A DNA stretch of 64,000 nt from contig NC_087387.1 of the NCBI RefSeq assembly GCF_963675165.1, forward strand, positions 577,501-641,500, written 5' to 3'. Made by a program: the position numbers and the translations under genes. Shown here piece after piece: positions 17,692 through 22,084 of the stretch. This stretch comes from Halichondria panicea (Eukaryota; Porifera; Demospongiae; Suberitida; Halichondriidae). The stretch's first letter is position 1. Every line of letters begins with the position of its first letter. Under the pieces are notes generated by a model. The model was not told where the DNA came from. It searched no databases and saw only the letters and a list, made by a program, of their open reading frames with translations.

Positions 17692-20070
17692 ATGACCTCT
17701 CTCAATGACATCAAGAAGAACCTCAAAGGGGTAGGAAAATATTATTTTGATGATAAATAATGTGAGATTTACATAATAAAATTATTTTTATGTCCCCCCA
17801 TACAGTATCGCTATGCAGACCGGACTGCCAGGGATGCTCTCACACTCACTGAGAATTTTCGGAATCTGAAAGTCAAAGACATGAAATCATTCGGTGAGTA
17901 AACTGATCCACACACACACACACACACACACGCCCACACTCCCTCCCACACACACACACACAATCCGTATAATTATTATTCAATATTATGTTGCTTTGTC
18001 TGTAGTTCACAGTAATGGCAGTAAGGAGAACTGCGTGTCAGTGAGTGGGACCATACCAGTCCATATCAAAGGTACGTATATACATGTATATATTACATGA
18101 CGTAAACGACCCCACCACCTACCAATCTCAGCCACATTTTACGTGAAGCTTGTTTTAAACACACCATGTCCCCATTTTTACTGCCCAAACATGCATTTCA
18201 CTGTAGTACATACAATACCAAAGTACGTAGTCTTACCCAACAGCAATCCACTTCACACCTCTTCACACTTCTTCCCACAGGGACTAATTACAACATCCCC
18301 GTGACTATTTGGTTGCGTCCCACTCATCCATACAGCTCCCCCATAGTCTACGTGACCCCCACGGAGGACATGGGGATACAACAGTCACGCTATGTGGACG
18401 CGAGTGGACTCGTCTACCTGCCCTACCTCAGCGAGTGGAAACAGGTACATCAGTGTGTGGTGTGTGTGTGGTGTGTGTGTGTGTGTGTGTGGTGTATGTG
18501 TGCGCTGATCAAGTACTCACAAAGCATCTTTGAGCGGCCATGGCTTTAGTTCAGTTGGGCCAATAACATGATTTTCTGAAAGCTTAGAGAGAGGTGATAT
18601 TGTGTGTATAATGGCTCATAGTATTTTGTCAAAAACTGGTCGAAAGTAGACTTTTGATTTTAATATCCCAAAAAAGCGTTTTGCGTTGAGCGTTCCTTAT
18701 AAGGTTATATGTGGTCAACCATAAAGTTGTAGATCTTAGTCAGCATGTCAACAATGCACTATTCTACAAACAGTTGACGGATCAACTTGAAGATTCTCAG
18801 CAACACTTTGATAAGACAGTCCAAGCAGCTCTGTCTGATGCACTATTCTCCATCTAATAATACCACTTTTTTCACAAGAAAAAGCCATTTTGTTTTTGAA
18901 TTTTACTTCCTAAGCAGACTTGGCATTTCACCACAATGTGTTTATGACACCACAATGTGTAAAGATTAGATATCCATATAAGGAACGCTCTACACCCTCT
19001 ATTTCAAAGATTCTGCAAAACCCTGTACCATCTGAACGGGTTTCTTCAAAGCTTTCAGATCACCAGAACTCTAGTTATTATGCCTCGGTGCGCATGCGCA
19101 AGCGAGGTATACGGTAGTGTGTTTGTGTATCTGTGTGTCTGTGTGTGTAGACTATTTCAGCTGCTCAAGGATCAATGAAGTGCAAGTAAGAGTTTCTATA
19201 GGCTTCTAATCATGTTTTCTCGGCTTGCTATTTGTGGATTTGCAAAATAAAGCTTTGTTCTAGAGTTATGCCTAGTTTTGCTTACTTGGAATGCTATTGC
19301 AGCCTTTTCAGAAGAGTCCGTGGCAAAACTTGTTCACCGAGTGTTGCTACTCTACTTAGTAGTTAGCTCTGCACTAGAACGCTAGCTATAGCTGCAAGAG
19401 TGAGAAGAGAGCTGCAAGACTCTGCTGACTTGCAGCCATTAATTTTAGACTTGAACTTTTGGCATCGATCGTTTTTAACAACAATCATGGTCGATCATTA
19501 CCCACTATTTGAGTTTCCCTGTACTGATTGCACATGCAGCAAAATTAAAAATGTTCATCATGATATAAATTATAATCAATGTGTGTATAAAAGCTAGCTA
19601 TTAGTAGTTTTATGTTATGTAGCTTTGGCACCTCCACCGAGGCATCAGCACCTGCGGTGCTTATAAAACTAGTACTCTCAAAATATAAAACATGTTTGAA
19701 CGGCCATAACTTTAGCTCCGTTGGTTCAGTTAAGATGGTAATGGTGATATATAAGTAACTGTATGCCTGAATAAATCAACCACAGTAATCTGTACATGTA
19801 AGTCTGAGCATAATTATATATACTAATTATCACTAAGTAATCTTACACGATTGTGCCCTTCTCTACAGAACTCCTCTGACCTCCCCACTCTCACTCAAGT
19901 TTTGTGTGCCACATTTGCTGAACATTGTCCAGTGTACAGTAAGAGTAAGGTTCTCAAGCAGCAACAACCGACACCCCAGTCCGTACAGCCACCCAGCACC
20001 TATGCCACACCCTCTAAAATTCCCACCCCCCAGCAGTACGGAAACACTCCTCCCAGAGGACCCTATCCTG
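17692..20070 (+). CDS. TSG101 copy 1, exons 1-5 only (UEV domain)
   Basis: Exons: 17692-17730, 17806-17893, 18006-18071, 18281-18444 and 19869-20070. All splice sites are GT-AG with the same phases as the complete copy at 22285. They encode the ubiquitin E2 variant domain (GTIPVHIKG, NYNIPVTIWL, YVDASGLVYLPYLSEW) plus the start of the Pro/Gln-rich linker. In TSG101 this domain binds ubiquitin and P(T/S)AP motifs in ESCRT-I. No exon 6 or later follows. Instead, the next strong acceptor (20330) opens a RING/B-box exon in matching phase, so this is probably the 5' part of a chimeric gene. Reading through the exon 5 donor would stop at 20243 and give a UEV-only protein. Substitutions relative to copy 2 are mostly conservative and there is no stop or frameshift, arguing against simple decay. 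Confidence 0.8.
18445..19868. other. Intron 4 of TSG101 copy 1, enlarged by insertions
   Basis: 1424 bp versus 593 bp in the complete copy (23059-23651). The surplus is mainly the TIR element at 19081-19644. It also holds a GT-rich tract at 18453-18502 and two pieces of the CCATAACTTTAG-type repeat. Confidence 0.8.
19081..19644. mobile_element. TIR element of about 564 bp, TGCCTCGGT...ACCGAGGCA
   Basis: The left end is TGCCTCGGTGCGCATGCGCA and the right end CACCTCCACCGAGGCA, so the termini are inverted. It contains CA/GT-rich sequence, TTCTATAGGCTTCTAATCA and AAATAAAGCTTTGTTCT. A diverged relative lies at 46376-46640. There is no transposase ORF. It is absent from the equivalent intron of the second TSG101 copy. 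Confidence 0.75.
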
Positions 20071-20330
20071 GTGTGTATGTTGTGAGACTTGGGGCTGGGG
20101 CAAGTACATCAAATTATTACCTTAGGTTCCATGTTTTAGTCTTGTGTGTGTGTGTGGCTGACACCTGGCTTTGTTTGGTGGGTACACACTTTTCTTACAA
20201 TGAGGACTGCATGGTATTTTTAGAAAGAAGTATGTACACTTAGTATTGACTGCTTCTTACTTGTGCATTGGGTTACAGTACAGTGATGACCCATGCAACT
20301 ACAATGTTAACAGTTAATTGTATTCCCCAG

Positions 20331-22084
20331 AGAAGAAACAATTGCTAACGATGGCCGAAGGACCTGATCCAGTTGTTGCTGATCTCGAACAAGAAGTGAC
20401 CTGTGGTGTCTGTCATGACCGCTACCAGGAGCCAAAGCTGCTCCCTTGTTGTCACTACTACTGCAAGCAATGCATCCTCACACTCTCCAGTCGCTACCGA
20501 CCCAACCAGCCGTTCCCCTGCCCCGACTGTCGTGAGCCCACTCTATTACCAGACAACAACCCAGACAGACTGCCCACTGCGTTCTTTATCAACCGAATGA
20601 AAGCACTCCACTCGAGGATGGAGAAAGCCCACGGCAAGTTGGAGACTACTTGTGAAATGTGCTCTGGAGGAAAGGCTACTGCATTTTGCCGACAGTGTGT
20701 CAATTTCATCTGTGAAGATTGTGTAAGATCTCATCAGCGTATGAAAGCTGTGTTTTCTACACATATCGTTTCCACTCTGGACGAGCTCAAACAGGGCGAA
20801 GTGAAAGAACTAACATTCAAAAGCCCACCACCCCCAAAATGTGAAGATCACGACGAGCCAAAAAAGATTTTCTGTTTTGATTGCGACAAGCTCATCTGTC
20901 GAGACTGTGTTGTGTTCGATCACCGTGACCACAAGTCAGAGTTTGTAAAGAAAGCCGCCCCCGCAACTCATCAAAAGCTGGCGGAGCACCTCTCCCCACT
21001 CAAGAACCTACTGCCTGATCTGAGCACCGCTGTGAATCAAGTGAAAGGAACTAAACAAGAGATCCATGCCCAAAAAGAACTGACAGAGAGACAAGTGAAT
21101 GCCAAGTTCCAGGAGCTACATGTACACAAAGAAACTTCTGCTATGTCTGATTCAAAGACGGAGAAGGTGGAGTCAACCCTATTCACCAAGATCCTTAATA
21201 AGGAGATTCCAGCCTCTATTGTACATGAAGACGACCAGGTGAGACTGCAGCTAAAAACACACACTGCATACAATTTTTCTGTAAAAATGTATCATACTTC
21301 TTCAAAATAAGGCCTCCTTCCAATATCCCTTATAACACCATATAAATTCATTGGCTATTTCTTGTTTTAAAAACCTAATTATTAACACCTTTAGACAGTC
21401 GTAGATCACTGACAGTGAGTGAGTGTTTTATTCCAGTGTATGGCCTTCCGAGATGTGAATCCAGTTTCCTCCACCCACATTCTGGTGATTCCACGGAAAC
21501 CTATTCCCATGCTATCAGCTGCACAGGACGACGATACTCAGGCAAGAATATTTTTAGTACACAAACTTACTGCATCTAATGCCCTCCATTGTTCATGCAG
21601 CTGCTGGGTCACCTGCTCCAGGTTGCGAGGAGAGTGGCTGACTCTGAGAAGTTGGAGGAGGGATATCGAATTGGTAAGAGTAGTAGATGTTCTGTATGAA
21701 GAAAGTATGTATTTGTAGCTCTTTGATAGTTCTATCCAATGGTGTGCTTATAAATCATTGATTTTTGGGTCCAAATCTGAAGAAAAAACATGACTATAAT
21801 GAGTTTTTTCTTAATAGCTAACTTTGATTGTCTGATTAATGTGTGCTTTTGTGTATGATAGCTCTATGTACTTTTTAATCAACATAGATCCATATCTTTT
21901 GTTATAGTAGTTGTAGCAAGGTGGTATGTCATTAGCTCCCCCCACACCCCCACACACACACATCCCCCCCCCACACACACACACACACACAGTGATCAAC
22001 AATGGTAAGCATGGAGCTCAGTCTGTCTACCACCTCCACATTCACATCATGGGAGGAAGACAGTTCGAGTGGCCACCTGGATAA
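20331..22084 (+). CDS. RING/B-box (TRIM-like) exon fused in frame to HINT copy 2
   Basis: Exons: 20331-21238 (large), 21437-21541, 21601-21673 and 21993-22084 with TAA. The large exon encodes a C3HC4 RING (VTCGVC...[12 protein letters not shown]...FPCPDC), two B-boxes (CEMC...CRQC...CEDC; CEDHDE...CFDC...CRDC), a short coiled-coil start, and then without interruption the HINT sequence [20 protein letters not shown]. The remaining exons complete the HIT domain with HLHIHIMGG and WPPG. The first ATG is 20351, with a TAA just upstream at 20315. However, tattccccag at 20321-20330 is a good acceptor, and its phase matches the exon 5 donor at 20070, so the exon may be internal to a UEV-RING-B-box-HIT gene. 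An internal in-frame ATG at 21143 could start a plain HINT. No PRY/SPRY, NHL or other usual TRIM C-terminus is present. The GC donor of HINT intron 2 is kept. Confidence 0.82.
21951..21992. repeat. (CA)n/C-rich tract at HINT exon 4 acceptor, copy 2
   Basis: CACACA blocks separated by a C run end at the AG acceptor (21992) of the final HIT exon. This matches the tract at 17226-17262 in copy 1. Confidence 0.9.

Follow-up and report, generated by a model that had tools for sequence, protein, structure and literature searches.

We analyzed a 64,000-nucleotide (nt) stretch of the genome of the sponge Halichondria panicea, referred to here as the window (positions 577501–641500 of contig C11, NC_087387.1; the genome searched comprised 131.5 Mb in 39 contigs), and concentrated on a predicted chimeric gene in which exons of TSG101, of a TRIM-type gene and of HINT follow one another. 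A HINT-TSG101 gene pair is present twice in the window, and the order along the forward strand is HINT-A, TSG101-A, an exon coding for a RING finger and B-boxes (the RING/B-box exon), HINT-B and TSG101-B (Table 1). The two copies can be aligned from HINT exon 1 (16359 in the first copy and 21172 in the second) into TSG101 intron 5, where the homology stops at one of two points depending on whether the alignment is scored strictly or loosely. From there to 21172 lies an insert, estimated at about 0.93–0.96 kb.

What is left of TSG101-A are exons 1 to 5 (17692–17730, 17806–17893, 18006–18071, 18281–18444 and 19869–20070), which sum to 559 nt and end in phase 1, and all four introns separating them are GT..AG. 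The exon formed by the RING/B-box part and HINT exon 1 has its donor after 21238, and HINT-B continues with exons at 21437–21541, 21601–21673 and 21993–22084, the last including the stop codon. HINT intron 2 is of the GC-AG type (GCAAGA) in both copies, starting at 16761 and 21542, and the other HINT introns are GT..AG. The genome search gave one match to the Vps23_core domain, located in TSG101-B.

Table 1. Features of the HINT-TSG101 locus, in coordinates of the window.
Feature	Position	Strand	Remarks
HINT-A, first copy	16192..17355	+	ATG to stop open; N-terminal extension absent from fused copy
TSG101-A exons 1-5, UEV and proline-rich start	17692..20070	+	phase-1 donor after 20070; remainder of TSG101 missing
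Composite intron	20071..20330	+	homologous to TSG101 intron 5 as far as 20208 (strict) or 20241 (loose), insert beyond that point; ends in acceptor AG 20329-20330
TRIM2/3-like insert	20331..21171	+	20-nt leader, ATG 20351, RING, two B-boxes, coiled-coil start
HINT-B	21172..22084	+	exon 1 remainder to 21238 fused in frame to TRIM exon; near-complete HIT
TSG101-B, downstream copy	22285..26835	+	exons 1-5 delimited; Vps23_core match 26719-26835

A preliminary description of this DNA had proposed that exon 5 of TSG101-A ends in phase 1 at 20070, that the exon opening after the AG at 20330 fits this phase without a stop and runs in frame into the second HINT copy, and that the eight joined exons give 1737 nt and 578 residues. 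We reproduced the exon coordinates, the phase and the frame, and recomputed the length as 1734 nt of coding sequence plus the stop codon, open throughout and encoding 578 residues. The UEV, RING, B-box and HIT modules that it had named all scored above the Pfam cut-offs in the joined protein (UEV, 124.7 bits; HIT, 97.1 bits; zf-B_box, 50.4 bits over two stretches; an ANCHR-like B-box, 32.5 bits; zf-C3HC4, 24.3 bits), and two more RING models (zf-C3HC4_3 and zf-RING_UBOX) matched below the cut-off. Against the solved TSG101 UEV, the UEV domains of the two copies fit equally well (122.1 bits for A vs 122.3 for B). The HIT match spans positions 1–97 of the 98 of the Pfam model, its best match among solved structures is HINT2 (158.6 bits), and the translation contains HLHIH, which we take to be the histidine triad motif. 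Presumed zinc ligands of the RING and B-boxes were recognised by eye. About 80 residues, including the site of a 9-codon deletion, separate B-box 2 from the HIT part and would represent what remains of a coiled-coil region. The Pfam scan found no Vps23 core (steadiness box), filamin or NHL match in the chimera. The named domains together with the open frame exceed chance.

The preliminary description had also ascribed the arrangement to tandem duplication. This held for the UEV and HIT parts and failed for the RING/B-box exon, which derives from a TRIM-filamin-NHL family on contig C11. The search of the sponge's own genome gave 151 matches, with 150 of 248 candidates scored, and the counts that follow are lower bounds. 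At least 57 other close copies (85–93% amino acid identity over 234–235 residues or nearly so) are spread over about 0.23–1.76 Mb of C11; more distant relatives of the fragment are clustered on contigs C3 and C5. At the DNA level the coding part of the insert shares 92–94% identity with the 11 relatives compared, and a Pfam scan of two C11 relatives showed RING, B-boxes, filamin and NHL in both, the layout of class VII TRIM proteins. The best-scoring solved structures for the RING/B-box part are TRIM3 and TRIM2. The insert ends within the coiled-coil region, with a 27-nt in-frame deletion relative to the relatives directly before the join to HINT. From these comparisons we conclude that the RING/B-box exon is a fragment of a TRIM2/3-type gene that lies at the duplication junction, outside the HINT-TSG101 tandem duplication itself.

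The acceptor in front of the RING/B-box exon is shared with these relatives. The exon has 20 nt ahead of its ATG, and a genome search for the pattern ATTCCCCAG lying 8–30 nt ahead of ATGGCNGARGG gave 44 places, one of them the insert (5 on the plus strand and 39 on the minus strand), whereas a reversed control pattern gave none. Upstream sequence was read for 40 of the 57 close relatives, as two sets of 20 (L025–L044 and L065–L084). By a loose rule, all 40 have a pyrimidine-AG site no more than 50 nt from the ATG, although the site of L084 is weak and in L028 the rule took an AG nearer than the conserved one. In L083 the upstream sequence is unrelated and ends in ttggtcttttctag, pyrimidines followed by AG, exactly where the homology starts. 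Among 20 more distant TRIM genes inspected by eye, six (five on C3 and one on C8) have a strong acceptor 8–10 nt ahead of the ATG; the others are less clear-cut, and in one of them no ATG was seen. Of 20 relatives, 19 have a GTAAGT or GTAAGG donor in the 600 nt upstream of the ATG, at a distance of 156–432 nt (L025 has none), compared with a mean of 6 and a maximum of 12 of 20 in shuffled sequences and 3 of 20 for the reversed motif; L085 has GTAAGA instead. The putative 5' introns measure 112 nt in L085 and 141–184 nt in six other relatives. Because a conserved pyrimidine-AG near the ATG is accompanied by an upstream GTAAGT or GTAAGG donor, the relatives very probably have an intron in the 5' untranslated region, of which the insert inherited the 3' end. 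We also considered that ATTCCCCAG is a core-promoter initiator, since TATAAA occurs roughly 30 nt further up in some relatives, and judged this unlikely: L083 retains just pyrimidines and AG at the same point although the sequence above it is unrelated; in L026, L036, L079 and L080 the changes are mainly C/T exchanges that spare the AG; and 19 of 20 relatives have the GTAAGT/G donor upstream.

The insert extends only 89–122 nt above the acceptor, no GTAAG occurs within 20071–20330, and BLAST homology to the relatives begins only at about 20303–20316 and is weak there (E 0.06–0.16). On these grounds the first exon and promoter of the relatives were most likely left out of the insert. Not one of the 40 relatives has a leader in frame with a phase-1 donor, and the insert alone is in frame and open; by eye, its leader resembles that of L080 minus a net 2 nt. 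This match carries modest weight, as it is a single event with a probability of about 0.2 by chance. A second phase-1 donor, GTATGT, follows 20229; its use would lengthen the frame by 53 codons, none of them a stop.

The leaders of the relatives are regular in a further respect. Between acceptor and ATG there are 13, 16 or 22 nt in nearly all relatives of the two sets; the other lengths are 10 nt at one place of the pattern and 40 nt in L028 if the conserved AG is used. These lengths are a multiple of three plus one, with L036 (18 nt) as the exception, and in several relatives the leader is open by eye in the frame of the ATG. This regularity may be left over from a coding exon further upstream.

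We compared the two copies for signs of constraint. The TSG101 exons differ at 41 of 556 aligned sites (92.6% alike). Their gaps are of 3 and 27 nt and that of the TRIM part is of 27 nt, so that all gaps in coding sequence are multiples of three, whereas five of the eight gaps in TSG101 introns 1–3 are not. Intron 4, with 13 gaps, was excluded from the intron insertion-deletion rate. The exons of HINT-A and HINT-B differ at 4 of 337 sites without gaps, while their introns are 60–93% alike with 12 gaps. For the TRIM part, the ratio of non-synonymous to synonymous substitution rates (dN/dS) against 20 relatives is 0.22–0.35, similar to that of the relatives among themselves (median 0.28 over the 172 pairs in which 8 or more differences are synonymous). 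Its private changes comprise 12 non-synonymous and 8 synonymous ones, counted base by base in codons hit twice, so that a few of the 8 lie in codons with an altered residue; 9 of the 20 fall in codons 267–279, beside the deletion. When the UEV differences were polarised by eye against solved TSG101, the sites at which a single copy matches were few and favoured A and B about equally. The use of dN/dS as proof of function was dropped, since there are too few changes.

Synonymous divergence is 0.038 between the HINT copies vs 0.147 between the TSG101 copies, although both pairs stem from one duplication and the HINT introns are strongly diverged. Gene conversion of the HINT exons is possible.

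Neutral decay was simulated with half of the differences assigned to each copy and the TSG101 intron insertion-deletion rate applied throughout. At the full rate the whole frame was open in 0 of 4000 runs under each of two settings, and without repeat-linked gaps in 0.020–0.037 of runs. TSG101-A alone stayed open in 0.014 of runs, and in 0.22 without repeat-linked gaps.

We consider it probable that the locus gives rise to a single UEV-RING-B-box-HIT transcript and one protein of 578 residues. The anatomy, the open frame, the domains, the source of each part and the presence of the same acceptor in relatives are established, and from them we infer transcription, splicing and function of the chimera. 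The argument turns on an inherited acceptor whose own first exon was seemingly left behind and which now lies downstream of a TSG101-A donor that has no exon 6.

Several observations weigh against this interpretation. The TSG101-A donor, GTGTGT, is weak (copy B has GTGCGT), and the phase match at the 5' join is weak evidence by itself, its probability by chance being about 0.2 (the product of 1/3 for the frame and 0.62 for the chance that a shuffled leader is open). Since many TRIM copies arose by recent duplication, the 40 relatives do not count as independent. A lack of homology higher up does not by itself show that the promoter is absent, because homology above the acceptor is weak and these introns evolve fast; if the strict limit of 122 nt is taken, the insert could just accommodate an intron of the length found in L085 (112 nt), without its exon. 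The divergence is equivocal too: dN/dS between TSG101-A and TSG101-B is an intermediate 0.40 (18 synonymous and 24 non-synonymous differences in 185 codons), the similarity of their exons barely exceeds that of intron 3 (91.9%), although it does exceed that of introns 1, 2 and 4 (81, 90 and 63%), and the private changes of the TRIM part are not clearly different from neutral (P 0.13 by simulation, 0.046 by a naive binomial test).

The main rival, which we regard as unlikely though by no means negligible, is that two separate transcripts are made, namely a truncated TSG101-A that ends in the intron and a RING-B-box-HINT gene that starts at ATG 20351, with fusion at the protein level confined to RING and HINT. 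The latter gene would need its own promoter, a promoter acquired from the intron, or trans-splicing at acceptor 20330. Its ATG matches the start codon of the relatives, and retention of intron 5 leads to a stop after 57 codons, so a short form of TSG101-A could exist. The putative donor of the relatives, however, lies beyond or at the very edge of the reach of the insert, where no GTAAG occurs, and an AG acceptor preserved ahead of the ATG requires a donor. No AATAAA or ATTAAA poly(A) signal occurs at 20071–22354, which is uninformative, because none is present within 400 nt of the HINT-A stop either. We give little credence to the view that what is left of TSG101-A and the RING-HINT exon are both debris in decay, intact in appearance only because the event is young. 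It would account for TSG101-A exons diverging about as fast as intron 3, for TRIM-part changes that are not clearly below neutral, and for the 0.22 of neutral runs that leave TSG101-A open, but it sits poorly with the simulated fate of the whole frame under either treatment of the gaps, with coding gaps that are all in frame, and with HINT-B exons that are nearly unchanged amid diverged introns.

Two further possibilities seem very remote. If the TSG101-A exons were spliced to exon 6 of TSG101-B (24282), which there follows a phase-1 exon and is therefore compatible in phase, a TSG101 with an alternative UEV would result, but such splicing must skip the RING exon, three HINT-B exons and five TSG101-B exons, all with splice sites that look intact. 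An assembly artefact, in the form of haplotypes placed in tandem or a chimeric join, is hardly more credible. Long near-identical stretches are common to the two copies, yet they differ by insertions and deletions and by about 7% in the TSG101 exons, and the TRIM piece is about 6–8% from the 11 copies compared and has a leader absent from the other 43 places of the pattern. The single chimeric polypeptide put forward in the preliminary description is the best-supported reading, with a joined transcript that is predicted.

We propose the following origin for the chimera. A tandem duplication would have copied the stretch that begins midway through HINT exon 1 and ends inside TSG101 intron 5, and a TRIM2/3-type fragment at the junction would have brought a 3' splice site and the RING/B-box exon, seemingly without first exon and promoter. 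An orphan acceptor would thereby have come to lie 260 nt behind the orphan donor of TSG101-A. A transcript from the TSG101-A promoter could then have exon 5 (phase 1) spliced to the captured acceptor and continue in frame into HINT-B, and its product would carry, in order, UEV, RING, two B-boxes, a short coiled-coil remnant and HIT.

In the proposed action, the UEV would bind ubiquitin or PTAP-like motifs on a client, and the RING, with a UBE2D-type E2, would ubiquitinate the client so bound. Known HINT proteins are homodimers, and the HIT part could in this way bring the RINGs together. TRIM RINGs commonly must pair for detectable activity, and pairing is normally provided by the coiled coil (PMC9732051). 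The HINT moiety may thus substitute for the lost coiled coil, and may retain hydrolase activity. Since the TSG101 core is absent, the chimera should not enter the endosomal sorting complex required for transport I (ESCRT-I). The N-terminal extension of HINT-A looks by eye like a mitochondrial presequence, and as HINT-B lacks this extension, the HIT part of the chimera would be cytosolic. The full picture, a recent polypeptide that reads ubiquitin or PTAP, writes ubiquitin and hydrolyses nucleotide adducts, with a HINT dimer in place of the TRIM coiled coil, and that arose through an orphan donor, an orphan acceptor and a net 2-nt change in the leader, is offered tentatively, as a proposal that falls slightly on the doubtful side of balanced.

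The closest precedent, by analogy of route and of donor gene, appears to be UEVLD (UEV3) of vertebrates, which arose by duplication of TSG101 followed by exon joining with a neighbouring gene, according to the relevant part of PMC2926785. Its UEV is given as 56% identical to that of TSG101 in PMC12513931. In UEVLD, UEV exons of a duplicated TSG101 are joined to other exons; at the present locus the duplication and a matching phase are seen, and the splice is predicted. The partner in UEVLD, however, is a lactate/malate dehydrogenase, whereas the present locus has a TRIM fragment that was already joined to HINT, and its copies resemble each other much more closely. Morgue of invertebrates also combines a UEV, a zinc finger and an E3-related module in one protein, but that module is an F box instead of RING/B-box, the UEV is C-terminal with an active-site glycine, and no HIT domain is named in the part of the source used here (PMC3787007). 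With TRIM2 and TRIM3 (class VII) the chimera shares a RING followed by B-boxes; unlike them, it is flanked by a UEV in front and a HIT domain behind, and its filamin and NHL domains and part of its coiled-coil region have been lost. It resembles HINT1 and HINT2 in a HIT domain covering 97 of 98 model positions, but UEV-RING-B-box replaces an N-terminal extension of the HINT-A type. The N-terminal UEV is common to TSG101/Vps23 of ESCRT-I, whose Vps23 core the chimera lacks. In searches of open-licence literature aimed at this architecture, no title or abstract beginning among those listed names a UEV-RING-B-box-HIT protein, although other print may hold one. Given this and the precedents of UEVLD and Morgue, the chimera is of a known kind, a chimeric gene made by duplication and exon joining, with an apparently new order of domains.

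The genome holds two other UEV loci of interest. At L003 (C15:2322976–2326149), a UEV exon is followed, within 1465–3115, by a frame that by eye seemingly completes the UEV fold and runs into a protein kinase (Pkinase, 122.7 bits), which makes this locus a candidate for another UEV fusion. A fourth UEV locus, L004 (C3:1323123–1326308), has a UEV exon and then a coiled-coil-like reading frame, with no Vps23-core match in the genome search.

Elsewhere in the window, tandem repeat arrays with 61-nt and 68-nt units lie at 10621–11378 and 24-nt repeats at 15805–15972. The end of a reading frame at 15000–15338 presumably belongs to a protein of the nitroreductase/iodotyrosine-deiodinase type.

If the chimera is expressed, it would represent the birth of a young multi-domain protein that can still be traced, with the sources of its parts, the approximate breakpoints and the inherited splice site visible, traces of origin that the old UEVLD case no longer shows. 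Its expression would also mean that the UEV exons of TSG101 have been reused as a fusion cassette, and would provide a system for asking whether a HINT dimer can stand in for the coiled coil of a TRIM protein.

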